Shown here: positions 4,074 through 63,949 of the stretch, one piece after another
Numbering within the stretch: the first letter of the stretch is position 1
Layout of the letters: every line of letters begins with the position of its first letter
From: a virus
Virus record (IMG/VR): IMGVR_UViG_3300030117_007605
Coordinates: 21,286-85,285 of that record
Length of the DNA: 64,000 bases
Strand: one strand, 5' to 3'
Program-made: the position numbers and the translations under genes
The notes under the pieces: generated by a model
The model's database searches: none
The model's input: the letters and a program-made list of their open reading frames with translations, nothing else
Told to the model about the DNA's origin: nothing

Positions 4074-7000
4074 AATTTTAAAAGAAGGCGGTAACATCTT
4101 CAAAAATATTGATGGTTATGCTGAAACAGTTCGTATTAAAAGAGAAGATGTAGATCCAACACTTGAGTGGCTTGAAGATATTTTAGGTGTGGACCTTGTT
4201 AACTTTAAATTGGGCACCACCGGCAGAAAAGAAACTTCCGGCGATTTGGATGTGGCGATTGATCAAGAAAAAGTCAATAAAGATGATTTAATTAAAAAAT
4301 TAATGAAATGGTTAAATGAAACCCATCCAGAACTTGAACTTGCTAATGCAGATACAAAAGAATTAAAGAAAAAAGTCAGACAGTGGATCGCTAAGTCAGG
4401 TACGTCTGTTCATTTCAAAACACCAATTCGTGGTGATGAATCCAACGGTTTTGTTCAAACAGACTTGATGTTTGGCGATCCCGATTTCATGCTTTGGGCT
4501 GTTAAAGGTGAATCAGGTCCAAGCGAATATCGTGGTGGAGATAGACAGAATTTATTAAATGCCATTGCAACGCAGCGTGGATACGCTTGGAGCGCCTTTT
4601 TCGGTTTAAAGGATAGAGAGACAGGTGAAAGGACATATGACCCTCAGACGGTCGTAGACCGCGTTCTAGGGGCAGGTCACAAGCCAGAAGATTTTGATAG
4701 CATTTATACTCTATTTGATATTCTTGCTGATAAAGAAAAATACCCTGACGACGTTTACGAGGCAATCCGTGAAAAAGCAGGTTTTGATTTTCCTCATCGG
4801 GATGAAAGTTTAGAGGAAGCAAAGAAGATTGAACCGCGCATTCAACACGCTGAAGATTTAATTTTCTTTGAGGGTGCTGCGGGTGCTTTGAGAGCATTGC
4901 GTGCTCTTCAGAAGATGAACGATCCAGAGGGTCGTCCTGAGACATCCGTCAAATGGGATGGTTCCCCGGCTGTTATTTTTGGTCGCGATGTGGATGGAAA
5001 CTTTATTTTTACTGATAAAAGTGGTTTTGGTGTAAAATCTTATAAAGGGAAGGTTGGTTCTGAAGAAGAAATGGAACAAATGTACCGTTCCCGTGCTGCT
5101 CGTGCTGCTAAAAAGATGGGTATGACACCAGATGAAGTTTTTGAAAAGAGATATTCCAAGATTTCACCTTTAATGCAAAAAGCATTTAGACTTGCAGAAA
5201 AATCAGTTGATCCTGACCATAGAGGTTATTTCTTTGGTGAAGTTCTATACTTTGACAAACCAGAGATTGAAGATGATAAGTTTGTCTTCAAACCAAATAT
5301 GGTAAAGTATAAGGTTAATAAAGACTCAGAAATGGGTAAAAAGATTGAAAAATCAGATGTAGGCATTGTGCTGCACTTGAAGAAAGATGTTGAAACTCTT
5401 GAAAATCAGCCACTAAATTTTGACGGTATGTCACCAGATCCAGACATTTTGTTTTTTGGTAAAACCTTTGTTGAGAAGCCCGTCGCCGTTAATGATGGCG
5501 AGATTGAAGCAATTATTAATTTAGTTGAACAAAATATGTCAAAATTAGATGAGTTTTTTAATGCTGGGCGTCTAAAGAAGCTCGGCATTTCAGATTTACC
5601 AAACTTATTCTATGGATACTTAAACAGCAAAGTTGACACAGGCTTAGAAAACTTGGGTGAAGACTTTAATGATTGGCTTGTCAGCAAAGGCAGTGTCTCA
5701 GATAGCAAAAAACTAAACGTAAAAAATTACATTTCTGAAAATCTTCAAACATACACTTTAATTTGGGATGTTGTCACCAGAATAATGCAGATTAAAGACG
5801 GCATTATTGGAAGCATTGACACTCAAGGAGGCTTGCCATTTAGTCAATCCCTCGGTGGTGAAGAAGTTGGTGAAGGTTATGTTCTATCTGATGATGGTAA
5901 ATTAATCAAATTGGTTGATAGATCTAAATTCACAAAAGCAAATCGTTCTGCGGTAAGAGAACAGGGCGAACTTGATCCTGATTATGAAGATGATTTAAGC
6001 GATCAGATCGATGATATTGAGGACGCAGAGACCCATGTATTTATTCCCGGTGGCTTTAAACCACCACACAAAGGGCACTTATCTTTACTTCTTCAAGCCG
6101 TCAAAGAATATCCAGATGCTATTGTCCATATTACAAGCGGACCAACAAAAAGAACCGCTGGTGATTTAGAAGTAAGTGCTGAACAAGCAAAGCAAGTTTG
6201 GGAAAAATATATTAAAGCTTATGGAATTAATAATAAAGTAGAACTTGACTATTTTGATCGTTTCAAGACGAATAGAAAGAAGAAAGACGGTTCAGTCATA
6301 ACATCTTCAAGCCCTTTCTTAAGAATTGGTCTCAGGATGGAAAACGAAATAACACCAACCTCAAAGATTGTCGCTGTTTCATCTGAAGATGAACATATAA
6401 ATTTTGTAAAAAATGCAGTAGATTATCTAAATGATAATAAAGGTAAAGATTTTGAGTTTGAGCCATTAAAGGCTGGTAAGGTTGAAGTTGAACCCGGCGT
6501 TAAATTTTCTGCCACTCAAATGAGAAAGGCGATTAGCGAAGGCGACTTTGATACATTTAAGGCTTTTATGCCAGAAAAACTTTCTGATGATGAAGCAAAA
6601 GAAGTATTTGAAATGCTTGGGGGCGTTATGGGTGAAGCATCTGCAATGGGTGCTGGCGATGTCAGCGGTGGATTTGTCCCCCCTTTTTCTTCGGATGAAA
6701 ATCAAAACGAACAAACTATTTATAAGGAACAATTACGTCAAACAATAAAACGTCTTGTCAATAAAGAGAGAAACAATATGCTAAATGAAGAAAAACAATT
6801 AAGAGAACTTATCAGACAAATCATTAAGGAAAATGATACACCAACCAAGTCAACTGGGTTGAATAAATTAATTCAAGCATTAAAGATTATTCTTCCAACT
6901 GTTGAATCTGGTTATAAATCACTAACCACTGATAAAGAACAGAGAGACTCTTTCAAACAACACTACCTTAAGGCTATTATTGATACACTCTCTCCTCAAG

Positions 7001-40245: not shown

Positions 40246-43200
40246 ATGGGTACAAAAAGTTTTTTTAATAAGCAAAAGTCACAAGAAGTAAAACTTCGCG
40301 GACAAGAAAAGTCAACAATCGATGAAGTTTCACAAAACGTTGAGTCAATTGAGTATTTGAAAGAGTATTCTGAGAGCAAATTTGATTTTGTTCCTCAACT
40401 AGATTTCCAAGATCCAGCTAATTTTGTCAAGTATGGTTCGGCTAAAGATTATTATGTTGACCTCGTTGACAGTGTAGTTCAATCTTATCCTTATGACGGC
40501 TCTTTGGCAGAAAGATTAAAATATTATAATAGTCTGGTTGCGATTCAAAAACACGAGTTTGATAAAAATTACCCTAGATCGGTTGGTTACGCTGATTTTA
40601 CTGATAGTTCATATAGTAACACTATTAATGATCCGTTTGCAGTCGGTACCGTTGTTTTTGGATTGGGTGAGAGCACCACACAACATTATGTGATAACCGA
40701 CAACTATTCAAACAAACTTGTTTATAACACCAGTTCTAACCAAGTTGGTAGTCTAGAGCTTGATTTTTCAACTGGCGCAACGGTTGAATTTTGGATGAAA
40801 AAAGATGCATTCCCAGTCGCCGCTCAAACACAAAATGAGGTAATTTTTTCAATTAGCAATGAAGAAAGTGATGTTTTTCAAGTTGTAACTGATGTTACAG
40901 CATCTAGTAAAATTATTGCCTGCTTTGCAAAACAGTCTTCATCGGCTGAGTTTTTATATGAATTTAATACAAACTTAACTCGCCTTGATGATTCAACTTG
41001 GCACCATTATGCCTTGGCGTTTTCTACAAGCTCTACTGGATATGTTGGTGAAATTTATGTTGATGGAGCATTTCAAGAGAAGAAATTTTACACAAATGGA
41101 AGTCCAAAACTTGTTCTTACGGGAACTTTAGATGCAACTGTTGCAGCCTCCTCTCTTCCTTTAAAATTGGGAGATGGAAAATTATCTGGCTCAATTGACG
41201 AAGTTCGCCTTTGGAAAACTACGAGAGATGCAAAACAAGTAGGTGTAAATTATTTCTTTGACGTCGGCGGCGGCGGTAATACTGATACCGCGAAAGTAAA
41301 TAATGACAATCCATTGGGTCTATCATTATATTACAGATTCAATGAAGGCAATACCGGGATCACTGCGGTAGATAATATCGTTCTTGACTATTCTGGTCGT
41401 TTAACAGATGGCGTTTGGGTTGGTTATAACACCACAGGACATACTTCGCGCCCCACCGGTAGTGCGATTATAGAATCAGGAGTTGCGACTGAAGTTGGTT
41501 CACCTATTATTTATTCTACTCACCCAACAGTTGTATCATACAAAGCAGATAAGACTGTATCAGGATCCGCATACGACGTAGAAAACCTAGGCAGCATGTA
41601 CAACATGTTACCATCGTGGATTTCCGACGAGGATGCCGCTAATGGGCTTCTAATTCGTAAGATGGTGCAGATTATGTCTAGCTACCTAGACACGCTTCAC
41701 GCGCAGATTACGGCGATTTCACAACTACAAGATGGTTCTTATGTTAGCGGCTCAAACGCAAAGCCCAATCCATTCTCAAAAAGAAACTTAATCTCGTATG
41801 GATTTGACATCCCAGACGTTTTTATTGATTCTGGAGTTATAGAAGAAATATATTTTAAAGATGAGAAAAGAATCTATGAAGATAAGCTTTTTAATCTAAA
41901 GAATTTAATCTTTCAAAACATTTTTAATAATTTAAATTACATTAATAAAACGAAGGGAACCGAAAAATCTTTTAGAAATCTCTTTAGATGCTTTGGTGTG
42001 GATGACGAATTAGTTCGCTTAAATATGTATGCGGACAATCAGGAATACGAAATCCGTGAGAACTACCAAACGTCTCAAGCAAAGAGAAATGTTATTGATT
42101 TCTCTGGTTATAAAGATGGTCAAAACAGAGAGGGTGTGGTATATACATTTGCCGACTCATCAAAATCAATCGCGGAGACCGGAGATTCTGGTTATATCCC
42201 GTCATCATCAAATCAAAATATTCCTTTGACTTTTGAATCGCAGTTCCAATTCCCTAAGTTTATTAATTTTGCAAATGGGCATTTAGACAGTCTTAGTAGA
42301 GCATCACTTTTTGGTGTTCACAGTGCAAGTAAAGATACTACGGTAACAACATTCGGAAATAATGATCTAAATTTTAAAGTATACGCTGACACAAATAGTA
42401 ATAACAGCACTAAATTTGTTTTAGAAACAAATATTGGTTCAGTGTCCTCTCTAGAATCTTCTTTTTATGAGAATGTATACGACAATACTGAGTGGACCTT
42501 CGCAGTTAGGACTAAGCCTAGAGAATATCCATATTCGCAAGAGGTCACATCTTCTGATGTTATTGATCTAGAGTTTTATGGCGTAAATTATGCAGCAGGC
42601 TACAAAGTACACGAATTTAGTGCTTCGGCAGAAGTTAATTTATCTGATGAGATCGGACAGTTTTTAACTGGTTCTGATAAAAGAATGTACGTTGGTGCAG
42701 ATAGAACTAATATTACTGGCTCTTTAAACAACAAATCAAATGTTAGAGCACTTTCATCAAGAGTTTGGTTTGATTATGTTGAAAACGAAGAGTTGAGAAG
42801 CCATGCTAGAGATATAACAACTTTTGGTAGGTTAAATCCATACCGCAATTCATTTATTTACGAGAATGGTGAGTCTGGTAGCTATATCCCAAGGATAAAC
42901 ACACTAGCCTTACACTGGAATTTTGAGAATATTACAGGCTCAGATTCAACAGGCAAGTTTTTAGTACAGGATATCACATCTGGTTCTAGCTACGCAGTAG
43001 ATCCAAGATTTGCGGGTGGAGAATACTCCAAATATGTCGGTCCAAACTATAGTGGACAAGGTGCTTTATTCTCTAATAGTTCTACAAAGGTTGTAGACTT
43101 CCTATTTTCCGACACGGCAGAACAACAATTGCCAGAAAATTTATATAGTTCTGACTTGGTAGAGATTAGAGAAGGAGATGATACCCTTTTCACTAGAGAA

Positions 43201-46200
43201 AGCCGCCCAAGCAAATACTACTTTGCAGTTGAAACTAGTTTATATGATACAATTTCACGAGAAATGCTAGGTTTCTTTGCTTCGATTAAAGACTTTAACA
43301 GTTTAATCGGATCACCAGAGAACTTATTCCGAACAGAATACAAGTCAATTAATAAATTAAGAGAATTGTTTTTTGAGAATATCGAAAATGAGCCCGATCT
43401 AGATAAATTTATTAATCTTTATAAGTGGTTGGATGGAGCACTCGATAGTGTTTTATCTAATTTAATCCCAGCTTCAGCACAAACTTCAGACAAAGTTAGA
43501 AATATAGTTGAGAGCCACATTTTAGAGAGAAGTAAATACCAACACAAATATTTACAGTTCAAAGAGTTTTCACTAGAGGACAAAGTTAAATCAGAACCAC
43601 AGCAACTACCGCCAGGAGCCGGAACAGTTGAATTTATTACCATTGGTGGAGACGTACAAGACGGCGGTGGTGGTCCAGATGTTATCCCAATGGGGAACAC
43701 TACTGTTTTTAATAGAAACATTCCCTCCAGAGCAGCTTCAGTGCTGAGAAACAATAGATCAGCCGGTCTTCGTACAGATCGACCTGCATCAGAACTGGTA
43801 GTCAAAACAACAGATTTTCTAACTCCAGCCCCAGGAACATTTTTTGGTTCACCTCTGGACCAAGGGACTAAGCCATTATGGTATCTGTTGAAGGTAGATA
43901 GAGAACCTGGTGGTCTGATGACCACAGGTGATATTTCTGCGGACTTTTCAAGAGTCCAGTCTCAAGTTAATCAAACTCAAACAACTACTGGGTCTCGTCA
44001 AGAGTTTTATGCGTTTGCAGTTGATGCAAAAAGATCAATTGGCAAACACACAACGTATGCAGGTGAGAACAGAGAAAACTATTTTCCAGTATCTTTTAAA
44101 GGATCACAGGACTCTCTAGAAGATGGTATAAAAATAGAGATTCGCACAGATGTTGAGAACAGATATGGTGATCCTTACTACCAATACGAAGGTGGAAGAG
44201 ACACAACATTTAATGATGAAAAACTAACCCCTGTAACAGTTACTGATTTATCAAATCAAAAAATATTAGCAGGACAAAATTATTTACCATTTGTTATTAT
44301 AAGCTCATCAGCTACACCGCAATCTGATTACCAAAAAGTTTTCACAGACTTAGGGATGAATATTGACATTAAGATGTCCCATCAAGACTTTGTAGTCGAA
44401 GGCGGCGGCTTGCAAGGAATTTTCACCGATGATCACGTCGGTGGGTGGATGTATCGTCACGACAATCTTTTTGTGACTGATGAAAACTTAAGGAAGGAAG
44501 GCTATGCGTTAGTTCCATCTGGCAGTAACACAATCTACTTGGTAAGCCCGAGATTCCGTAGTGCAAGTTCGGGTCCGGCTTATGACGAGAATCAGCCATA
44601 TGGTGCTTATTTAAAAGATGGCGCGGCACAAAGACCAGTTAACATTAAGAATTTAAGTGGCTCAAACTTTTTCAAAGATTATGAAATAATTCAGACAACT
44701 GGACGCAGGATCAACAATAGATACTACGTTAAATCAAGTGGATTTACTGGCTCAGTGAATGCTACAAGTAGTATTTCTTTTGATGAAGATGGTGTATTCT
44801 TTTATAAAGATTTTACAGTTTTAGATAGAACTAACACGGGCAGCAATGATTATATTATTGTTAATAGATTTAGTGCCCCAGGTGGACCGGAAGTGAATTC
44901 TTTCGCATTCTTAGATGTTGAGTCCGCAGAACTTTCAGTTTATAACAATTTAAATTATAGGAACCTTGTTGTTCGAATCGATAACAATGAACTATTAACA
45001 CGTCACGCCCTCACGGGCGGTTATGATTCAGTACTTCTACAACCAACAGGCGCTTACTACAAGTCTTATAGGAATGGGGTATACAAAATATCAGCATCCT
45101 TAGAAACACCAGAACCAATCTTTGACAACTCTTATGTTGGCAATGGTATTCCTAGAACTGATGTTCAATACTCTTGGATTGCTAGTTCATGGAGAGCGAG
45201 AAAAACAGGATATCCAAACAGCACTACATTAACGAATGGATTATTAACTGCTAGTGGTAAAAACCCCGTCTATGGACAAAATGAAAGTAATTTTGATTAT
45301 AATATTTCATCAAGCGATTATTCACCAATTTATGGCTTTGAGTATTCAGATAATATCACAGGAGCTTCAGAAGGTCATATAGAATATGGAGTTGGCAGTG
45401 GTGTCCCTGTCTCTGTTGCGTTCAATGCTACCAACTATATTATTGTTGGCGATGTCGATTTAAGTAAAAACCTTTTTACTACAGCTTCTGCTGCCCCTGG
45501 CAATTATTATAACTTGCCTGATTTTGATGCTCCAACTGCTCCATTTATATTAAATGGGCTTCTTTTAAGCAACAACGGACCTTATCAGTACCCATCTTTC
45601 AAACAGATTAGAGGTGGCGAGCATAGAGTTGGTAGAGAATTTTGGCAGCAAAATTTATATGTCAATAATCGTGACAAGGTTTTTGTTGACGAAAACTCTG
45701 ACAGATTAAGAAGAATAAAACTGGGTGATAAGATTTCTATTACACAGGCACCAGTGACAAACAAATATAAACCTATTACACAACTAATTGACAGCACAAC
45801 TGGTTCTGTAGAATATGCTCTGGGCAATGATCTAGATTACTACGCAAAAACTTATAATAGCGCATCTAATTTTATTGAAAATTTAAATGAAGACTTAAAT
45901 GCTCCAACAAGAGATATCTTTACAACTGACTTCTATAAGTTTAGTAGTAAATTCGGAATGATCAACTATGCTGAGACGGTTTACCCACGACAACAAAATC
46001 AATATCTAGGAAATACTAGAGAAAGAAATAACTATGTATCGTTCTGGGTGAGTGACGAGTTGTCTGATAGAACAAATCAAACAATTGTAAATTCACAAGG
46101 CTACTCGATCGATGCTAGTAACTGGGCTATGGATGTAAGTTTAACAGGCGCAGCTTTGAATTATCAGCCAGAAAGATCTGGTGAATTGATGCGTAATACT

Positions 46201-48543
46201 GGATCTACTGGTGTGGGCGAAGGACTTGGCGAAGTCAATGCAAGGTACAGCTTTAATATGGGTGAGTGCCGCCCGAACAATCTTGTTCAGCAGCAAGCAG
46301 GAACAGGAGCTTTCTACACTACATATGGTGAATTCGCAGTAGACACAAGATTGGTAGGACAAGACGAAACTTTAATTCCAGAGTTCGCAATTTCGGACTT
46401 CATTAACACAGTTATCACAGAAAATAATGGGGATTTCTTAAATAAAGAAATCTATGGTTTTACTCTAACTGGTAGTGAAAGTTTGGTTGGAAATAGTTTT
46501 GCGGAAAGATACGGTCGTACAGAGCAGATAACATATTTAAAACAGCTAAAAGATTTTTATGGACAGCCAACAGGCATCAAATTAACATTTAATGCAACTA
46601 AAAAACTATTACCCAGAGAAGGTTTTTACCCTCAACAAAGAGTTATACAACTTGCACAACAATTCTCTGCTTCTTATAAAGATTCAACAATCACAATTGG
46701 GCAGACGAACTTCACAAACCCAACAGGACCAGACAAAACATGGTCAACTGCACTTATGCCCTTCTGGGCTCCAGGGGTAGGCTTAAATTCTATTAAAGCA
46801 GGGTTTGCTGTAGACTTTGCTTATAAATCAACGGGCAGTGCCCATTCTTCAGGTGGCATTAATTATCAATTCGATGCGACTGCACCATTTGAATCAATTT
46901 TAAGTCCAAGTGAGCACGTTAGTCTTGTATACCATATTCAAAACAGTGGCTCAACCTCATTAAAAAGTACAGCATCTGTGAATAAAACGGATGGTGTGTA
47001 CGAAATGATGTCACACAACTTCTTTGCAGAGGTCCCTGACTTCTTTTTAGAGGATCTGGTCTCATTTAAATCAGCCCCTCAGAGAAGCTGGACATTTGAA
47101 GGTCCACTTTCTTCAAGTGCAGGTGTTAAAAAATTCGCTATGGATGTTTACATTGAAGACCCAGTTGACTTCTTAATGTATGGTAATGGTGCAGCTTTTG
47201 GACCGTTCCCATACAATAATCACGCACCTCCTGGGTACTATTGGAACTCCTCTGGTGTCTTACCAGGAGATTACTGTACATTTTTAACTAATCTAGGTGG
47301 TAATAGAGCCGGATATACAAGGGCAACTATAGTTTTTGACCCAACAAAACTTCTATCTTCTGACGCCAAAACTGGTCAAACTTCTTTCTCATTACAAGAT
47401 ATTGCTGCAAATTCTACAATTGTCAATGCAAACTTCTTAGTTGAAAGAGACGGAGTATCACCAGCAGACACTGTGTTTATGACATTGACTTCAAGTCTAG
47501 ACTTCTTTGTTCAGGATGAAGAAGACAGATGGACAATTAGAAGTAAGTGGGAGTGCCCGATCTTAAACTTCAGTGATGTACCAGCAGAAACAGGTGGCTC
47601 AGATACCGCTGTTGAAGGAATGTGGCATCAGTATGGCAATCTAGCAGGGTCCAATGCGAGAAAAAGACTCAATGTTAGAATCGAAGACTCAGAATACATT
47701 GGTAGTGACTTGACGGGCTCTCTATTGAGTGCTGTTGGATTTGAACAAAGTTCGAAGGCATTTGGCAAGATGAAACCAAAAGCTATTGTAGAAGAATCTG
47801 TATGCTGTATCCCATTTGTTGTTGACCCCAAAAGCGGTAAGGAAATCTTTTTTGAAATTCCAATTGAACAATTTGAAAAATCCTATCGAAAAGTTCGTAA
47901 TGGAGAGGTTACAGAAGACTCATTGATGGATATGATTAGAAAAATGGATAAATATGTAGTTCCACCAGTATATGATTTTGTTAATATTAGAGACGCTGCC
48001 GACAGGACTTTAAACACAAAAACAGATTTTGAACCAGGAACGGCTCCTTTTTCTATGTACTTGTTTGAGTTCACAAGTGAGTTGACAAGACAAGACTTGG
48101 CAAACATTTGGCAGGGTGTGATGCCTAGCATCGCAACTTCGGCAGAAAAAGAAACTGTTTCAATAGAGCACCCTATTGAGGAAGGAGAGTTACTTTCACC
48201 ATCGATCTTCTTGTACAATGGATTTCCAGAAGGGTTTATGCCCAATAATATTCGTTGGAAGATCTTTAAGGTTAAGAAGAGAGCTAAGTATGATTATTAC
48301 GAGATGCTTTCACAGAAAACTAACAGCCCAGTCTATAAAAATTCAAATATTTCAAAGGCAGGAAGGTTCTCTTTCAACTACCCATATGATCAATTTAGTC
48401 TAGTTGAGCTTGGTAAGCTGGATGCTGAATTCCAAGTGGTTAATGAAAAACCGGATGTTATAAAAAATGTTCCCTTGGGTTATTTGAATGAGGAAAGCCC
48501 GTTATCTGAAAATCCACTTCCAGAAGAGACGACAGAAGAATAA
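40246..48543 (+). CDS. Giant virion protein (2765 aa) with LamG-like domains
   Basis: One uninterrupted frame. After a charged N-terminus, residues about 165-375 form a LamG/concanavalin-like domain: 'TVEFWMKKDAFPVA', 'DDSTWHHYALAFS', 'GEIYVDGAFQEKKF' and 'GSIDEVRLWKTTRD'. A second, weaker LamG-like segment lies at about 670-900 ('NTEWTFAVRTKP', 'LSSRVWFDYVENEEL'). Between them is a helical segment with 'LRNLFRCFGVDDELV'-like sequence. The rest is long Ser/Gly/Thr-rich beta sequence and the end is acidic. The gene has its own 32-base upstream gap. It is probably a baseplate-attached fibre or wedge extension involved in host glycan contact; exact role unknown. Confidence 0.75.
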   Translation: MGTKSFFNKQKSQEVKLRGQEKSTIDEVSQNVESIEYLKEYSESKFDFVPQLDFQDPANFVKYGSAKDYYVDLVDSVVQSYPYDGSLAERLKYYNSLVAIQKHEFDKNYPRSVGYADFTDSSYSNTINDPFAVGTVVFGLGESTTQHYVITDNYSNKLVYNTSSNQVGSLELDFSTGATVEFWMKKDAFPVAAQTQNEVIFSISNEESDVFQVVTDVTASSKIIACFAKQSSSAEFLYEFNTNLTRLDDSTWHHYALAFSTSSTGYVGEIYVDGAFQEKKFYTNGSPKLVLTGTLDATVAASSLPLKLGDGKLSGSIDEVRLWKTTRDAKQVGVNYFFDVGGGGNTDTAKVNNDNPLGLSLYYRFNEGNTGITAVDNIVLDYSGRLTDGVWVGYNTTGHTSRPTGSAIIESGVATEVGSPIIYSTHPTVVSYKADKTVSGSAYDVENLGSMYNMLPSWISDEDAANGLLIRKMVQIMSSYLDTLHAQITAISQLQDGSYVSGSNAKPNPFSKRNLISYGFDIPDVFIDSGVIEEIYFKDEKRIYEDKLFNLKNLIFQNIFNNLNYINKTKGTEKSFRNLFRCFGVDDELVRLNMYADNQEYEIRENYQTSQAKRNVIDFSGYKDGQNREGVVYTFADSSKSIAETGDSGYIPSSSNQNIPLTFESQFQFPKFINFANGHLDSLSRASLFGVHSASKDTTVTTFGNNDLNFKVYADTNSNNSTKFVLETNIGSVSSLESSFYENVYDNTEWTFAVRTKPREYPYSQEVTSSDVIDLEFYGVNYAAGYKVHEFSASAEVNLSDEIGQFLTGSDKRMYVGADRTNITGSLNNKSNVRALSSRVWFDYVENEELRSHARDITTFGRLNPYRNSFIYENGESGSYIPRINTLALHWNFENITGSDSTGKFLVQDITSGSSYAVDPRFAGGEYSKYVGPNYSGQGALFSNSSTKVVDFLFSDTAEQQLPENLYSSDLVEIREGDDTLFTRESRPSKYYFAVETSLYDTISREMLGFFASIKDFNSLIGSPENLFRTEYKSINKLRELFFENIENEPDLDKFINLYKWLDGALDSVLSNLIPASAQTSDKVRNIVESHILERSKYQHKYLQFKEFSLEDKVKSEPQQLPPGAGTVEFITIGGDVQDGGGGPDVIPMGNTTVFNRNIPSRAASVLRNNRSAGLRTDRPASELVVKTTDFLTPAPGTFFGSPLDQGTKPLWYLLKVDREPGGLMTTGDISADFSRVQSQVNQTQTTTGSRQEFYAFAVDAKRSIGKHTTYAGENRENYFPVSFKGSQDSLEDGIKIEIRTDVENRYGDPYYQYEGGRDTTFNDEKLTPVTVTDLSNQKILAGQNYLPFVIISSSATPQSDYQKVFTDLGMNIDIKMSHQDFVVEGGGLQGIFTDDHVGGWMYRHDNLFVTDENLRKEGYALVPSGSNTIYLVSPRFRSASSGPAYDENQPYGAYLKDGAAQRPVNIKNLSGSNFFKDYEIIQTTGRRINNRYYVKSSGFTGSVNATSSISFDEDGVFFYKDFTVLDRTNTGSNDYIIVNRFSAPGGPEVNSFAFLDVESAELSVYNNLNYRNLVVRIDNNELLTRHALTGGYDSVLLQPTGAYYKSYRNGVYKISASLETPEPIFDNSYVGNGIPRTDVQYSWIASSWRARKTGYPNSTTLTNGLLTASGKNPVYGQNESNFDYNISSSDYSPIYGFEYSDNITGASEGHIEYGVGSGVPVSVAFNATNYIIVGDVDLSKNLFTTASAAPGNYYNLPDFDAPTAPFILNGLLLSNNGPYQYPSFKQIRGGEHRVGREFWQQNLYVNNRDKVFVDENSDRLRRIKLGDKISITQAPVTNKYKPITQLIDSTTGSVEYALGNDLDYYAKTYNSASNFIENLNEDLNAPTRDIFTTDFYKFSSKFGMINYAETVYPRQQNQYLGNTRERNNYVSFWVSDELSDRTNQTIVNSQGYSIDASNWAMDVSLTGAALNYQPERSGELMRNTGSTGVGEGLGEVNARYSFNMGECRPNNLVQQQAGTGAFYTTYGEFAVDTRLVGQDETLIPEFAISDFINTVITENNGDFLNKEIYGFTLTGSESLVGNSFAERYGRTEQITYLKQLKDFYGQPTGIKLTFNATKKLLPREGFYPQQRVIQLAQQFSASYKDSTITIGQTNFTNPTGPDKTWSTALMPFWAPGVGLNSIKAGFAVDFAYKSTGSAHSSGGINYQFDATAPFESILSPSEHVSLVYHIQNSGSTSLKSTASVNKTDGVYEMMSHNFFAEVPDFFLEDLVSFKSAPQRSWTFEGPLSSSAGVKKFAMDVYIEDPVDFLMYGNGAAFGPFPYNNHAPPGYYWNSSGVLPGDYCTFLTNLGGNRAGYTRATIVFDPTKLLSSDAKTGQTSFSLQDIAANSTIVNANFLVERDGVSPADTVFMTLTSSLDFFVQDEEDRWTIRSKWECPILNFSDVPAETGGSDTAVEGMWHQYGNLAGSNARKRLNVRIEDSEYIGSDLTGSLLSAVGFEQSSKAFGKMKPKAIVEESVCCIPFVVDPKSGKEIFFEIPIEQFEKSYRKVRNGEVTEDSLMDMIRKMDKYVVPPVYDFVNIRDAADRTLNTKTDFEPGTAPFSMYLFEFTSELTRQDLANIWQGVMPSIATSAEKETVSIEHPIEEGELLSPSIFLYNGFPEGFMPNNIRWKIFKVKKRAKYDYYEMLSQKTNSPVYKNSNISKAGRFSFNYPYDQFSLVELGKLDAEFQVVNEKPDVIKNVPLGYLNEESPLSENPLPEETTEE

Positions 48544-58000: not shown

Positions 58001-59359
58001 ATGCCAAAAAAGAAATTTGGACCAGATGATGTATTTTATAACACGTTAAAAACGTATCCACAATTCACACTTGAAAGATACTTTAATCAGTCTTATATAA
58101 ATAATCGACAAACACAAGGAAATAGAGTCCAGAGTGGTTCTATTTCTTTATATGAGTTAAATGTTGATAGAGAATATGGTGATGAACTTGCAACACCTTT
58201 TATTACAAAAGGCGAGAATGTCAATGATTTTGTTTTTACTAACACGACTGGTTTGACCACGGCTCCTGAATATGTCCAAGCGTCACAGGGGACAAACATT
58301 TCATCCTCATATCCTATGACTTCATCAGTCTCTAGAGAATTACTTGTCGGTAATGGTTCAAGTGCCCCATTCAGTGGGTTCGCTGAAATTGCAGGTGTGG
58401 CTGAAACAGGATCAATAAGAAAAATTATTGCCTTAGAGAATGCTTTAAATGCTAATAAAATTTTTAGTCAAAAGTTTGATTTTAGCGAATATTATGTTTC
58501 AGGAATAATTAGTGGCGACGGCGCAGTGGCAAGCGGTGATATTAAAAATGCTGCTTCACCAGTCCATAAATACATGTCATTATTTGTTGTTCCTCAAGTG
58601 TTCAAGTACCAAAAAATAAATCCAGGGTCAGTTGAATTAAATTTTTATGTAACTGGCACTCTAGCAGCATCAGCGAAAGATTCTAAAAGAAATGGAGAAC
58701 TGGTGGAGACATTTGGTCCAAGAGTTGGTGGTACAATAGGCACCGTCTCATATACTGATGGAGTCCTGGTTTTAACTGGAAACTATAGTTTAGATAACAC
58801 AGTTAGTGATGGTTACTTATGTCCAATCACAGGGACTTCAGCAACAACCCCAGGACCAGGGAAAGTAACGCTTCAAACAGCATGGAAAGATAGACCAAAA
58901 TGGGTCCACTTTGGAGCATATCAGTCTTTCATCAGGTCGTCTGATTCCGTACTTTCTCAGAGTTATGGTCCAGTTTCCTCTTCATATGAGTTCAAATTCG
59001 AAGGAACTAACACGATCCCAACACTTACTATGTTTGCCCATGCTGATAAGAATGAATTTAATTGGAGCAACAATTTAACTTATCTTGATAGAGATGTTGC
59101 AACTGGTTCAATTTATCAACACATTGTTGTTGCACAAACTGGTTCAAGCTTCTATAAAGAAAAAGAATATTTACCAGTCAAAAACACGATATCAAGCTCC
59201 TTTGCCAACTATTCTGCGTCATATGAGGATCAAACTTTCATATCAAAGATTAATATTTTCGATAAAGATGGTAATATAATAGCAGTGGCTAAATTAGCCA
59301 AGCCTGTGACTAAAACAAATAGCACAGATTACACCTTTAAGTTAAAAATAGATATATGA
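58001..59359 (+). CDS. Virion structural protein, paralogue of the previous gene
   Basis: 452 residues. It shares the C-terminal block: 'NEFNWSNNLTYLDRD', then 'ISKINIFDKDGNIIAVAKLAKPVTK'. An additional about 25 residues are inserted between the two parts compared with the upstream paralogue, and the N-terminal half is less similar. The stop overlaps the resolvase ATG (ATGA), joining the structural block to the recombination genes. Confidence 0.7.
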   Translation: MPKKKFGPDDVFYNTLKTYPQFTLERYFNQSYINNRQTQGNRVQSGSISLYELNVDREYGDELATPFITKGENVNDFVFTNTTGLTTAPEYVQASQGTNISSSYPMTSSVSRELLVGNGSSAPFSGFAEIAGVAETGSIRKIIALENALNANKIFSQKFDFSEYYVSGIISGDGAVASGDIKNAASPVHKYMSLFVVPQVFKYQKINPGSVELNFYVTGTLAASAKDSKRNGELVETFGPRVGGTIGTVSYTDGVLVLTGNYSLDNTVSDGYLCPITGTSATTPGPGKVTLQTAWKDRPKWVHFGAYQSFIRSSDSVLSQSYGPVSSSYEFKFEGTNTIPTLTMFAHADKNEFNWSNNLTYLDRDVATGSIYQHIVVAQTGSSFYKEKEYLPVKNTISSSFANYSASYEDQTFISKINIFDKDGNIIAVAKLAKPVTKTNSTDYTFKLKIDI

Positions 59360-59886
59360 TATTAGGATTAGATATTTCAACCAGCATCACAGGATACACA
59401 GTCCTTGATAGTGCTGGAAAGCTCGTAGAGTACGGCTCTATTGACACAAGAAAGTACAAAAACTTTTTTACCAAAGTAGGAGTGGTTGAGGAGAAATTAA
59501 TCGCTCTGAGACAATCCTACGCGGTTCAAGAGATATACATAGAACAGTCTTTGCAGTCGTTTAGATCGGGATTTTCATCTGCACAAACTCTTTCAACGCT
59601 TTCACGCTTTAATGGTGTGGTTAGTTGGATTTGTTTTACTTTATTTAAATTGGAACCAGAGTACCTTGCTGCGGTCTCAGCTAGGCGAATTTGTGGGATA
59701 AAAGTGCCAAGAGGTACTAAAGCCAAACCAGTTGTACTTCAATTTGTACTTGACAACGAGCCACAGTTTGTAGTAGAATATACCAACAAAGGTAATCCAC
59801 GCCCAGACAGTTATGATAAGGCAGATAGTTGGGTGATTGCCAAAGCTGGTTTTGATACATGGCAACAAAAGAACAAAAAATCTTAA
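59356..59886 (+). CDS. RuvC-like Holliday junction resolvase
   Basis: 176 residues. The RNase H-fold acidic residues are visible: Asp6 in 'ILGLDISTSITGY', Glu63 in 'EIYIEQSL', and Asp153/Asp157 in 'DSYDKADSWVIA'. Length matches RuvC (about 170). It would resolve branched DNA before packaging. T4 itself uses the unrelated endonuclease VII (gp49) for that job, so a RuvC-type enzyme here is a replacement. The gene overlaps the primase gene by 28 bases. Confidence 0.87.
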   Translation: MILGLDISTSITGYTVLDSAGKLVEYGSIDTRKYKNFFTKVGVVEEKLIALRQSYAVQEIYIEQSLQSFRSGFSSAQTLSTLSRFNGVVSWICFTLFKLEPEYLAAVSARRICGIKVPRGTKAKPVVLQFVLDNEPQFVVEYTNKGNPRPDSYDKADSWVIAKAGFDTWQQKNKKS

Positions 59887-60797
59887 AAAAATTATTGGGC
59901 GATTATTATGAGAGCAGCAAAGAAATGCTGTTCTCTTGTCCTTTTTGCAATCACCATAAAAAGAAACTATCTGTCAACCTTGATAAAAACGTATGGAAAT
60001 GCTGGGTGTGTGACACATCTGGTAGATCTGTTGATTTTTTGGTTAAAAAGTTTGGTTCAGCCGCAGATTTAAAAGATTGGGGTCTGGATAAAGAGCTAAA
60101 CTTTGAGAACATCGAGTTTATTCTTTTTGGTCAAAAAGTAGAGGTAAAGAAAGAAACATTATCTTTGCCTGAAGGATTTATCCCACTTTTTGCTAAAGGG
60201 CGTTCTTATCATAAGGGCAGAGCATTAAAATATATGCGTAAGCGCGGGTTCACAGATGAACAAATCTTTAGGATGAAAGTTGGGGTATGCACAAAAGGCG
60301 AATACAAAAATAGAGTTATTATTCCATCCTTTGATGAACAGGGTGATTTAAATTATTTTATTGCCAGAACTTATGCTAATGACTTCCCAAAATACAAAAA
60401 TCCAAAAGTTTCAAAGTCAGAGATGATTTTTAATGAGTTGACAATTAACTTCAAACGCCCTATAATAATAGTTGAGGGTGCTTTTGATGCAATGCGAGCA
60501 GGTGACAATGCTATACCAATTTTAGGTTCAACAATTAAATCAGATCACTTGTTATTCCAGAGAATTGTTGAAAACAGGACACCAGTTTACATTGCATTGG
60601 ATGAAGATGCACACAAAAAAGAGAAAAGAATAATTGAATTGTTTTTAAAATACGGTATCGATGTTAAAAAGGTAGACACGACTGGTTATGAAGACATTGG
60701 GGAAATGCCCAGAGAAGTAGTAGAAGAGAGAGTACAAAACGCAACTGATATGGGGGGATTAAATTTCTTATATCAGTTAATAGAAGAGGTTGCATGA
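59859..60797 (+). CDS. 61: DNA primase, gp61/DnaG-like
   Basis: 312 residues. N-terminal zinc ribbon: Cys27, Cys30, Cys48, Cys51. TOPRIM catalytic core: 'IIIVEGAFDAMRAG' with Glu206 and 'YIALDEDAHKK' with Asp248/Asp250. Makes RNA primers for lagging-strand synthesis with the phage helicase, which is not in this window. The start lies inside the resolvase gene; the stop overlaps the downstream ATG. Confidence 0.9.
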   Translation: MATKEQKILKKLLGDYYESSKEMLFSCPFCNHHKKKLSVNLDKNVWKCWVCDTSGRSVDFLVKKFGSAADLKDWGLDKELNFENIEFILFGQKVEVKKETLSLPEGFIPLFAKGRSYHKGRALKYMRKRGFTDEQIFRMKVGVCTKGEYKNRVIIPSFDEQGDLNYFIARTYANDFPKYKNPKVSKSEMIFNELTINFKRPIIIVEGAFDAMRAGDNAIPILGSTIKSDHLLFQRIVENRTPVYIALDEDAHKKEKRIIELFLKYGIDVKKVDTTGYEDIGEMPREVVEERVQNATDMGGLNFLYQLIEEVA

Positions 60798-63700
60798 AAT
60801 TTGCACACATAGCAGACACACATATAAAAAATTTAAAATATCACAAGGAATATAAGGCTGTTTTTCAGCAGTTGTACCAAACTTTGAGGGATCAGAAGGT
60901 CGATTATATCATCCATTGCGGTGATATTGCCCATACAAAGACACAAATTTCACCAGAATTTGTCGAATTATGCTCTGATTTTCTCAAAAATCTAGCAGAT
61001 ATTGCCCCAACTTACGTTATTTTGGGCAATCACGATGGTAATTTGCGTAATTCTTACCGTCAAGATGCCATTACACCTATTGTCGATGCTTTGGGGCATA
61101 AGAATCTACACTTATTGAAGTATGCTGGCGAAACTCACTTGAATGATGAATTTTGTCTTAACACTTTATCAGTATTTGACGAAGATAATTGGGTTAAACC
61201 AAGCAATCCTGATAAAATTAACATTGGACTTTATCACGGTGCGATTAAATATAGTCGAACAGACATTGGCTTTGTCATGGAACACGGTGATCACGGAGTT
61301 GATATCTTCGATGACTGTGATTATTCAATGCTGGGTGATATTCACAAGACTCAGATCCTTAACAAAGAGGGTACGATTGCATATGCTGGTTCAACTATCC
61401 AACAAAACTTTGGCGAAACCCAAGACAAGGGTATTTTTATCTGGGATATTAAGTCTAAGACAGAATTCACAAGAGAAAAGTTTAATTTTGTAAACCCAAA
61501 ACCCTTTGTAACAATCAACTTAACAAAGACAGGCAGAATCCCAAAAGGTTTTAAATGTCCAGATGGTGCGAGACTAAGATTGGTATCCAAGTCTAACATA
61601 GCCTTAGAACGGCTGAGAAGGGCTGTAGACATCGCGAAGCATCGATTTAAGCCCGAGAGTATCACTTTCTTAAATAAAGCCAACAGCGGCGATTTGTCGG
61701 TGGAAGATCGTGTAAGTTCTGAGCTATTTGAAAATCTACGAGACGAGAAGACACAACAAGATCTAATTAAAGAGTACCTTAAAGATTATAATGTCGAGGA
61801 GGATACACTAAATGAAGTCTTCGCTCTTAATTCAAAGTACAACAAAGTTGTTGAAGAGAGTGAAGATATTTCCCGCAACGTTCATTGGCGCATTAAAAAG
61901 TTTAGTTGGGACAATTTATTTAATTACGGAGAAGGTAATTCTCTTGATTTTGATAAGCTGTCTGGCACTGTCGGAATTTTTGGTAAGAACTTCAGTGGAA
62001 AATCTAGCGTTATTGATGCATTACTCTACACAATTTATAATAATACTTCTAAGAACATTAGAAAGACATACAACATTATTAACCAGAACAAAGATTATGG
62101 ATCTGGTGTGGTGGAGATTGAAGCTAACAACAAGACTTACAAGATTAGTCGCAGATCGGATAAATACACTAAGAAGCTTAAAGGCAAGGTCACAAACGAG
62201 GCTAAAACGCAAGCGGACTTTGACTATGTGGACCAAGTATCGGGAGAAGTAGGTTCTTTAAATCAGACAGCCAGAGGCAGTACAGACAAAGCGATTCGTA
62301 ATGTTTTTGGAGATCTAGATGATTTTCTAAACACATCAATGTCTTCTCAGCTTGGTGCTTTATCTTTTATTAACGAAGGTTCGACTCGTCGTAAAGAAAT
62401 CTTAGCTAAGTTCCTTGATTTGGAATTCTTTGAGAGAAAATTTAAATTAGCAAAAGAAGATGCTTCTGATTTAAGAGGTGCCCTGCGCAGGATTCAAGAC
62501 GTGGATTATGATGAGGGCATCAAAAAGACAAAAAATGATATCTTTAGAGCCGGTGCAGCAGTAGCCAAACAAAAAAACCACTGTGTCACTTTAAAGGAAG
62601 ATTTAGGTTTTGTAGAAAAAGACATCGCAGCTTTAGAAAATAGCTTATCACAAATATTAGAAAAACCAATTTCTATCCGTAAAGTTAGAAAAGATTTGGA
62701 GAAGGCTGGAGAAAATAAAAAAGTTTTAAAAAATAAAGTTAGGGATCTAACAAAACAAATCACAAGTAAAGAAGATTTCTTACAAAAAGGTGGTGCTTTA
62801 TTAGAGTCAATCGACATCCTGAGCTTGAGCCAGCAAAAAGAAGAGGCTGACGAGTTACAAGATAAAGTAGAAAAACTACTCCGAGAACAAGAGAAGCAAG
62901 AGCGAGAGAAGGAGACAAGCCTTCGACAGATTAAGATACTAACTGACATCCCGTGTGGTGACAAGTATCTAACTTCTTGTAAGTTTATTAAAGATGCTCA
63001 TGGAGCCAAACAAGATCTAACAATCACTCAAAAGGTGTTGGCAGAGGTTGAAAATAAATTAGAGTTGAATTCCGGTGAATTATCTGATATCGATGTTGAT
63101 AAGGTTAGCAAAACAATTAATAACTGGAATCAGTTAACTCAAAAAATAAAAGATGAGCAAAGCAACATTGCCAATCTAAATTTAGAATTAGAGAGAACCA
63201 ACACGGCTATTCAAAAGTTGGAGGGCGAAATAGAACAACTAAATGAAACGGCAGATTATTATGAAGAACATAAAGAAGTGTTAGAAAATATGGAGAAAGT
63301 CGTTTCAGAGTTAGAATTAGCTAGAACTAATAAAGAAAGAACTGAACAAGAACTACAAGATTGTGAAGACCGAATCTACCAACTTGTTGGCAAAGAAGGT
63401 GCTTTAGAACAAAAATTACAAAATTTAAAAGATCTTAAAGAAGAAAGATTTAGGTTAAATGCTGAATACTCGGCTTATGACCTCTTCATGCGATGCATGC
63501 ACTCTAATGGTATTGCTTTTGATGTTATCAAGAAGGCTTTACCAGTCATCAACACAGAGGTTGCTAAAGTACTGTCAAATATTGTTGACTTTGAGGTTTT
63601 CTTTGAGAATAGTGAGAATAAATTAAACATATTGATCAAACACCCAAAACATGACCCTCGCCAACTTGAAACTTGTTCGGGAGCAGAAAAAACACTTGCT

Positions 63701-63949
63701 GCCGTTGCTATTAGAATCGCTTTGCTAAATGTAAGTAATATGCCAAAGAGCAACTTGTTTATCCTTGATGAACCGGGCACTGCTTTGGACGCTGAAAACA
63801 TGGAAGGCTTTGTCAGAATCTTAGACCTTGTAAAAGGATATTTTGATGTTACTTTACTAATTACTCACATAGAGAGTTTGAAAGATATTGTCGATATGAC
63901 AGTTGAAATCTCTAAAACAGATGACGGATATGCATTTGTTAATCAATGA
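60794..63949 (+). CDS. 47-46: Fused gp47-gp46 (Mre11/SbcD-Rad50/SbcC) recombination protein
   Basis: 1051 residues. The N-terminal half is a metallophosphoesterase nuclease: 'FAHIADTHIKNL', 'YIIHCGDIAHTK', 'VILGNHDGNLRN' and 'GDIHKTQIL'. After a linker (about 340-375) comes the SMC-type ATPase: Walker A 'GIFGKNFSGKSS' at 394-405, a coiled coil with a possible hook Cys721/Cys729 ('PCGDKYLTSC'), a returning coil, signature 'ETCSGAEKTLAAVAIR' and Walker B 'LFILDEPGTALDAEN' with Asp992. In T4 these are two genes, gp47 and gp46, that process DNA ends and degrade host DNA. Here both activities are in one chain with a short coil. The hook spacing is Cx7C, not CxxC. Confidence 0.92.
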   Translation: MKFAHIADTHIKNLKYHKEYKAVFQQLYQTLRDQKVDYIIHCGDIAHTKTQISPEFVELCSDFLKNLADIAPTYVILGNHDGNLRNSYRQDAITPIVDALGHKNLHLLKYAGETHLNDEFCLNTLSVFDEDNWVKPSNPDKINIGLYHGAIKYSRTDIGFVMEHGDHGVDIFDDCDYSMLGDIHKTQILNKEGTIAYAGSTIQQNFGETQDKGIFIWDIKSKTEFTREKFNFVNPKPFVTINLTKTGRIPKGFKCPDGARLRLVSKSNIALERLRRAVDIAKHRFKPESITFLNKANSGDLSVEDRVSSELFENLRDEKTQQDLIKEYLKDYNVEEDTLNEVFALNSKYNKVVEESEDISRNVHWRIKKFSWDNLFNYGEGNSLDFDKLSGTVGIFGKNFSGKSSVIDALLYTIYNNTSKNIRKTYNIINQNKDYGSGVVEIEANNKTYKISRRSDKYTKKLKGKVTNEAKTQADFDYVDQVSGEVGSLNQTARGSTDKAIRNVFGDLDDFLNTSMSSQLGALSFINEGSTRRKEILAKFLDLEFFERKFKLAKEDASDLRGALRRIQDVDYDEGIKKTKNDIFRAGAAVAKQKNHCVTLKEDLGFVEKDIAALENSLSQILEKPISIRKVRKDLEKAGENKKVLKNKVRDLTKQITSKEDFLQKGGALLESIDILSLSQQKEEADELQDKVEKLLREQEKQEREKETSLRQIKILTDIPCGDKYLTSCKFIKDAHGAKQDLTITQKVLAEVENKLELNSGELSDIDVDKVSKTINNWNQLTQKIKDEQSNIANLNLELERTNTAIQKLEGEIEQLNETADYYEEHKEVLENMEKVVSELELARTNKERTEQELQDCEDRIYQLVGKEGALEQKLQNLKDLKEERFRLNAEYSAYDLFMRCMHSNGIAFDVIKKALPVINTEVAKVLSNIVDFEVFFENSENKLNILIKHPKHDPRQLETCSGAEKTLAAVAIRIALLNVSNMPKSNLFILDEPGTALDAENMEGFVRILDLVKGYFDVTLLITHIESLKDIVDMTVEISKTDDGYAFVNQ

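Follow-up and report, generated by a model that had tools for sequence, protein, structure and literature searches.

A conserved phage gene joining an Mre11-like nuclease and a Rad50-like ATPase in one frame, with widely spaced cysteines at the coil apex

Our analyses show that a viral gene located in a window of 64,000 nucleotides (the whole stretch of DNA analysed, positions 21286-85285 of the 85,285-base virus record IMGVR_UViG_3300030117_007605) encodes both partners of the Mre11-Rad50 system (SbcCD, gp47/gp46-type) in one polypeptide. The gene, at 60794-63949 on the plus strand, runs from ATG to TGA over 1051 codons without any internal stop and keeps its single frame in all the relatives that span the junction between the two halves. 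The fusion is a real, conserved and already described kind of protein, here a stable trait of a large, well-populated phage family. The whole is very probably explained by a one-polypeptide phage Mre11-Rad50 enzyme that would work as a two-chain machine and process DNA ends in recombination-dependent replication. Its one unusual part is the spacing of the two cysteines at the apex of the Rad50 coiled coil, a feature that would gain weight if zinc binding proved true.

One open frame kept across relatives

Relatives were retrieved from viral contigs using peptide patterns of the window protein, which biases the set towards close relatives, and several of the resulting 78 loci carry identical genes. 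The junction is spanned by 63 of them, all in one frame (58 complete, approximately 39-96% identity); the remaining 15 end at contig edges and were excluded from the junction count, and split loci amount to zero. Because all 63 junction-spanning relatives keep one frame, the fusion is not an assembly slip. The first-pass annotation of this DNA had proposed two complete halves in a single frame and had called for a check for stops or frameshifts between them; relatives, used here instead of reads, bear it out, together with the domain matches and structural model described below.

We also considered whether Rad50 could be produced separately from an internal start. No ATG occurs in frame between residues 179 and 516, and within residues 300-403 the only in-frame starts are TTG 301 and GTG 303, neither preceded, by eye, by an obvious ribosome site, so that a separately started Rad50 is unlikely and this option was rejected. 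In the same region, a GAGGAGG motif and, behind it, an ATG at 61812 that is out of frame (window 61796-61812) open a 146-residue open reading frame (ORF) in the +1 frame. Across 15 rows (the window and 14 relatives, two of them identical), this ORF contains many stops in the three most distant ones and, among the 12 closer rows, a single stop in one (L010), with another (L056) shortened by the contig end. As it is open in most close relatives and not in distant ones, we take it as a chance frame and not as an overprinted gene. A scan with Rfam at gathering score gave zero matches in the window and three loci.

Domain architecture

Both halves are recognizable by several approaches. Pfam detects Metallophos (PF00149) at residues 1-167 (E 6.8e-13) and SMC_N at residues 367-1043 (E 2.8e-8, with 33.9 bits, under the curated cut-off of 40), and PHROGs detects phrog_77 (SbcC-like) at residues 208-1045 (E 1.2e-50). 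A profile built from 38 family members and searched against the PDB matches Rad50 heads (E 6.7e-17) and SbcD (E 8.5e-11). The AlphaFold2 model of the 1051-residue protein has a mean predicted local distance difference test (pLDDT) of 81.3 and a predicted template modelling score (pTM) of 0.47, and Foldseek matches it with both Rad50 (7zr1, 5dny, 3auy) and SbcD/Mre11 (7dog, 4lty, 3thn). The resulting architecture, all on the plus strand, is as follows:

60794-63949, plus strand: fused Mre11-Rad50 gene, 1051 amino acids
60794-61483, plus strand: Mre11-like phosphodiesterase domain, residues ~1-230 (Pfam PF00149, Foldseek; motifs D8, H10, D44, N79, H80, H148, D182, H184)
61334-61345, plus strand: GDIH motif, residues 181-184 (motif columns), with Asp where the examined split Mre11/SbcD carry His
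61496-61678, plus strand: Mre11 capping-like domain, residues ~235-295 (AlphaFold2 secondary structure, boundaries by eye)
61745-61861, plus strand: two-helix, helix-loop-helix (HLH)-like element, residues 318-356 (AlphaFold2 helices 318-332 and 336-356)
61862-61882, plus strand: short linker, residues 357-363 (AlphaFold2 model)
61883-62422, plus strand: Rad50 N-lobe, residues 364-543, with Walker A GKNFSGKSS and Q-loop Q519 (conserved columns, model)
62423-62947, plus strand: coiled coil, outward arm, residues 544-718 (AlphaFold2 helices)
62948-62980, plus strand: hook loop, residues 719-729, with C721 and C729 (Cx7C), midway between the coil arms in the model
62981-63499, plus strand: coiled coil, return arm, residues 730-902 (AlphaFold2 helices)
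63500-63946, plus strand: Rad50 C-lobe, with signature CSGAEKT, Walker B LFILDE, D-loop D999 and H1025 (conserved columns)

The N-terminal half thus combines a calcineurin-like fold with the DxH, GD, GNHD, H and GxH motifs of the Mre11/SbcD nucleases, one metal ligand being D for H, and the C-terminal half has the Walker A, Q-loop, signature, Walker B, D-loop and His switch of Rad50/SbcC in two lobes flanking an antiparallel coiled coil with arms of ~175 residues each. The HLH-like element lies where Mre11 has its helix-loop-helix, the part bound to the root of the Rad50 coil, and may play the same role by analogy (PMC3175470). It is followed by an ordinary linker, as had been anticipated, here of seven residues, and both the domain order and the linker are in line with the structural argument of PMC3175470.

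Catalytic residues and the GDIH motif

Catalytic columns were scored on 46 distinct full-length family rows. On the Mre11 side, D44, H47, N79, H80, H148, D182 and H184 are invariant; D8 and H10 occur in 45 of 46 rows, the exception being L031, which was trimmed by script to a later Met and has both residues in its full sequence. On the Rad50 side, K403, Q519, S962, G963, E965, D992, E993, D999 and H1025 are invariant, and position 404 is Ser in 45 rows and Thr in one. The first-pass annotation had listed all catalytic motifs as present. This holds for the other motifs listed but not for the usual GHxH metal motif of Mre11, which reads GDIH here, with D182 aligned to H206 of Pyrococcus furiosus Mre11.

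In a wider set of 35 rows (24 fused, 11 split), all 11 split pairs carry His at the H206 site and none Asp, whereas the 24 fused rows comprise 21 with Asp and three with His (XacN1, Carin-5 and GN1, the last with gaps at the first motifs probably due to a late annotated start). Asp is also found in the additional fused phages Va2, Ab1-TPeters and phiXF1 and is kept in the fused contigs L200-L209, where the preceding Gly is variable; the fused contigs L213-L215 carry His. Split contigs resembling XacN1 have no Asp in the 16 cases where the motif is visible (some near-identical; the 17th is truncated there). We therefore rejected the idea that every fused protein has Asp at this position, since fused XacN1, Carin-5, GN1 and L213-L215 carry His. 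H47 alone is an unspecific mark, also shared by the split phages Grass and A511.

The hook at the coil apex

The hook pair of the window protein, C721 and C729, is indeed of the Cx7C type, as first noted, in place of the CxxC at the apex that is the hook motif in the available portion of the literature source (PMC6969161). To place it in context, we examined 85 loci of the family and near kin, corresponding to 70 distinct proteins, of which 67 include the hook stretch and three lack it; hook letters are identical in several of the 67. All 67 have at least two cysteines at the apex. The spacing is Cx7 in 19, Cx6 in 26, CxxC in 20 and CxC in two, with one more Cys in 10 of the Cx6 and 10 of the CxxC proteins. 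Wide hooks (Cx6C/Cx7C) are thus the commonest form in the family (45/67), and in the Cx7 rows all seven positions between the cysteines are variable. The earlier suggestion of a missing or altered zinc hook consequently survives in its second part only: the hook is altered, and the constant presence of at least two apex cysteines speaks against its being missing.

In a 51-row tree, computed with coil columns excluded and a simpler model, omitting L083, L084, L085 and L081 and accompanied by a tool warning that some long rows join each other, the distinction between wide and other hooks requires six changes, all forced by starred branches. Outside the window group, wide hooks appear to be rare among the sequences examined. 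Rad50 frames of at least 600 amino acids from genome contigs, mostly Chloroflexota, are CxxC in 59 of 59 cases (14 of 73 frames were shorter and left out), and CxxC is also the form in the named phages examined, with one exception, the split Rad50 of Moorella phage MTATph1 (L090 2995-5124), which is Cx7C; a scan of the viral contigs for relatives of this Moorella Rad50 found none. Since split MTATph1 is Cx7C and fused phages with CxxC exist, the wide hook is neither caused by the fusion nor needed for it.

Judging from these sequences, the wide hook of the window family likely still clasps metal. In the available portion of PMC6969161, an SMC hinge can substitute for the Rad50 hook, and this replacement fits, by analogy, the notion of a dimerization tip tolerant to change. 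Literature searches on phage hooks and hook variants yielded no title or abstract start about wide hooks, supplements and most subscription papers being outside their reach. We put forward, tentatively, that wide hooks may represent a second natural type of Rad50 hook, with cysteines 6-7 residues apart forming an inter-chain metal clasp of interchangeable geometry, repeatedly switched with CxxC on an otherwise unchanged enzyme, and that Asp-for-His may be a mark of older fused lineages. The swaps between wide and CxxC hooks offer a natural experiment on what a Rad50 hook requires, the same question that has been approached by placing an SMC hinge at the position of the hook (PMC6969161, available portion).

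Occurrence and phylogeny of fusions

Fused homologues, whose search had been proposed together with the original observation, are found beyond the viral contigs. A tblastn search with the fusion of Rhizobium phage RHph_TM30 retrieved 37 phage records, 19 of them with one place covering >80% of the query, and by reading the gene regions we confirmed one-frame fusions in thirteen cultured phages: Microcystis phage Mel-JY01 and twelve others infecting Rhizobium (RHph_TM30), Vibrio (1.031.O and Va2), Escherichia coli (IME392), Acinetobacter (3098 and Ab1-TPeters), Cobetia (Carin-5), Yersinia (GN1), Thermus (phiLo), Xanthomonas (XacN1 and phiXF1) and Tenacibaculum (pT24). Scans with two alignments of the other fused groups gave just three loci each.

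An unrooted tree of the 35 rows mentioned above (555 columns; LMTA-57, L083, and LR756508, L081, are omitted) places the window protein in a strongly supported clade in which all 16 sampled rows are fused. The fused/split label requires three changes on this tree, two of them forced by starred branches. XacN1 adjoins T4-type split genes, apart from the other fused rows, and its relatives in viral contigs, which are outside the tree, have two genes in 17 of 17 cases. A single clade for all fusions including XacN1 was rejected (approximately unbiased (AU) test p 0.0026 with the 24 fused rows, 0.0025 after removing the two longest rows). Holding together the window clade and the Rhizobium-Vibrio clade is compatible with the data (p 0.51), and these two clades may share one fusion. 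The simplest reading is that at least two fusions took place, unrooted counts alone leaving room for later splits.

Several records show peculiarities at or around the fused gene. Listeria phage LMTA-57 (L083) has one fused gene and A511 (L182) has two, the lengths of the stretches differing by one base, and among the matches listed (40 rows) only the two LMTA-57 records match without a break, the other 38 being divided into two or three parts; the LMTA-57 fusion is possibly a sequencing slip. Yersinia phages YerA41 (L178) and GN1 (L179) have an identical hook stretch, one record being fused and the other broken in two inside the Rad50 C-lobe. In L005 (5277-6178; also L067), an ORF (5338-6042) whose beginning resembles, by eye, a GIY-YIG homing endonuclease lies just behind the fused gene and is followed by a second copy of the 3' end of that gene, as if the element had replaced the gene end and the former end had stayed in place downstream. 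In L081 (3570-4635; LR756508, a 484-kb uncultured phage), the fused gene is interrupted close to GDIH by ~1 kb that contains a Cys-rich reading frame, endonuclease-like by eye; Rfam gives no match there at gathering score.

Candidate cellular homologues of the window type did not stand up to inspection. L094-L096 (Halobacteriovorax, Acidiferrobacteraceae, Flavobacteriales) sit among the same phage genes, and L097 (CP070664.1, the "chromosome" of a WOR-3 bin) is a phage-like piece with a partial fused gene next to N runs; all four were considered phage DNA in metagenome bins. For L097, a scaffolding artefact is possible, and the N runs may have another cause. A plasmid search matched nine records, none covering >80% of the query.

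Comparison with known systems

The closest description in the literature is that of Mimivirus R555, which Yoshida, Claverie and Ogata reported in 2011 along with twelve further fusions, one in a Bacillus phage (PMC3175470; here and below, as far as its available text goes). These authors argued that R555-like genes in aquatic metagenomes are possibly largely phage-borne, noted phage primases on R555-like scaffolds and gave a structural rationale for the Mre11-Rad50 order. As in the window protein, Mre11 precedes Rad50 in one frame, and R555 carries Asp at the H206 site and His in GDxxH (PMC3175470), both of which occur in 46 of 46 family rows; aquatic viral origin and scaffolds with phage primases are shared as well. 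R555 differs in its length (1351 amino acids, versus ~1050 in the window family), in having a coil as long as those of cellular homologues and in belonging to an amoeba virus, whereas the contigs of the window family carry tailed-phage genes. The family fits the 2011 description of the R555 type, with which we group it by shared residues and context, and its complete genes and neighbourhoods flesh out the proposal of abundant phage-borne fusions in aquatic environments. The terms hook, zinc and cysteine are absent from the main text of PMC3175470. A search of titles and abstract starts for fused phage Mre11-Rad50 returned no other paper about such fusions, and a review describes SbcC and SbcD as practically universal in jumbo phages (PMC7824862, available portion).

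Among cultured phages, Microcystis phage Mel-JY01 (PP395634, WWT39521.1; 30% identity over 99% of the query) resembles the window in its one-frame fusion, upstream primase and GDIH motif and differs by its CxxC hook; its gene is annotated merely as "AAA domain containing protein". The other twelve have both halves in one frame and, unlike the window protein, CxxC hooks in all cases. Phage T4 has the same two enzymes, gp47 (Mre11) and gp46 (Rad50), with a presumed role in recombination-dependent replication, but as separate genes with the small genes 46.2 and 46.1 in between, a GHxH motif and a CxxC hook. The contrast with the separate T4 genes drawn by the first-pass annotation is therefore correct, yet the window protein is no close relative of T4, from whose type of pairs it is parted by well-supported branches of the 35-row tree. 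E. coli SbcCD and the archaeal and eukaryotic Mre11-Rad50 complexes share the folds and differ in consisting of two proteins, with a CxxC hook as the standard in the literature (PMC6969161, available portion).

Gene neighbourhood

The fused gene belongs to a conserved cassette, in which it follows genes for a RuvC-like resolvase and a primase and precedes those for a terminase and a portal. In the window, it is preceded by:

59356-59886, plus strand: RuvC-like Holliday-junction resolvase, 176 amino acids (phrog_827, E 2.7e-6)
59859-60797, plus strand: DnaG-type primase, 312 amino acids (phrog_47, E 4.7e-51; CHC2 zinc finger), whose stop overlaps the ATG of the fused gene (ATGA)

Among relatives with at least 1.5 kb upstream, the primase is found in 47 of 48 and the RuvC-like resolvase in 46 of 48. 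The window stops 51 bases past the stop of the fused gene and the downstream genes are known from relatives alone: terminase and portal genes, recognized by their relation to the ones identified by eye in L096, are present in 53 and 40, respectively, of the 60 relatives with at least 4 kb on that side. The 85-kb record contains one SbcC-family match. A baseplate-wedge match (phrog_219, E 3.9e-20) suggests, at the sequence level, a contractile-tailed phage.

Proposed mode of action and alternative explanations

We propose that two copies of the fused protein would pair through their Mre11 cores, ATP-bound Rad50 heads and apex hook to yield the usual machine with two nucleases and two ATPases, in which the HLH-like element would lie at the coil root and the seven-residue linker would lead into Rad50. 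Working alongside the neighbouring primase and RuvC-like resolvase, such an enzyme would both process and tether the ends of DNA in recombination-dependent replication and the formation of concatemers, prior to packaging. Gene order and the role of gp46/gp47 (PMC3175470) suggest that in this cassette replication and recombination feed packaging. Fusion of the halves would, by inference, fix their ratio at 1:1; nothing in the present data demands the altered dimer geometry that had also been imagined. Several points weigh against this scheme. The literature searched holds no experiment on the window family, and the pTM of just 0.47 leaves the relative placing of the two halves without a confident model. 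The modelled linker has seven residues, versus the 9-12 estimated to be needed to bridge the gap (PMC3175470), unless the ends of the flanking elements contribute. D182 in place of a metal-ligand His could alter activity, and, as the record covers only part of a genome (85,285 bases), a further Mre11 or Rad50 might exist elsewhere in that genome.

Other explanations account for parts of the observations. That an assembly or sequencing error joined two adjacent genes has a negligible probability: an error of that kind may exist in LMTA-57, given its one-base length difference from A511, but here one frame recurs in the 63 junction-spanning relatives, at ~39-96% identity, and the gene of the cultured phage Mel-JY01 is likewise annotated as one. 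Cleavage of the polypeptide after translation into separate Mre11 and Rad50 is very improbable too, as nothing direct favours it beyond the use of two proteins in many phages, and relatives share at the junction a helical element plus short linker; protease sites were not looked for. An inactive nuclease half, leaving a Rad50-type tether or clamp, would be suggested by the replacement of a metal-ligand His in GDIH, with D182 in 46/46 family rows versus His in 11/11 split rows. We consider it unlikely: the other listed catalytic positions are kept, which is unexpected for a dead enzyme, and Asp is a common metal ligand in its own right. The same change is, moreover, present in R555 (PMC3175470). 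Somewhat less unlikely, although still improbable, is the loss of the hook, with a Cx7C pair that no longer binds zinc and coil tips unlinked or linked by a disulfide. The spacing departs from the CxxC of the literature (PMC6969161, available portion) and the model of the tip has moderate confidence only (block means 73 and 67), but at least two apex cysteines persist in 67 of 67 distinct proteins despite variable surrounding residues. Because of this retention and of the approximately six switches between wide and other hooks on the tree, interchangeable metal-binding tips fit better than decay. The one-polypeptide Mre11-Rad50 enzyme remains our favoured explanation and, as a compact natural fusion, would provide a convenient single-gene target for work on structure and mechanism.

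Other features of the window

Far upstream of the fused gene, window positions 4054-30312 contain sugar-related matches (a cytidyltransferase, two glycosyltransferases, two aminotransferases and a nucleotide-sugar epimerase), which suggest a putative phage-borne glycan pathway. Window positions 40246-48543 are occupied by one ORF of 2765 codons.

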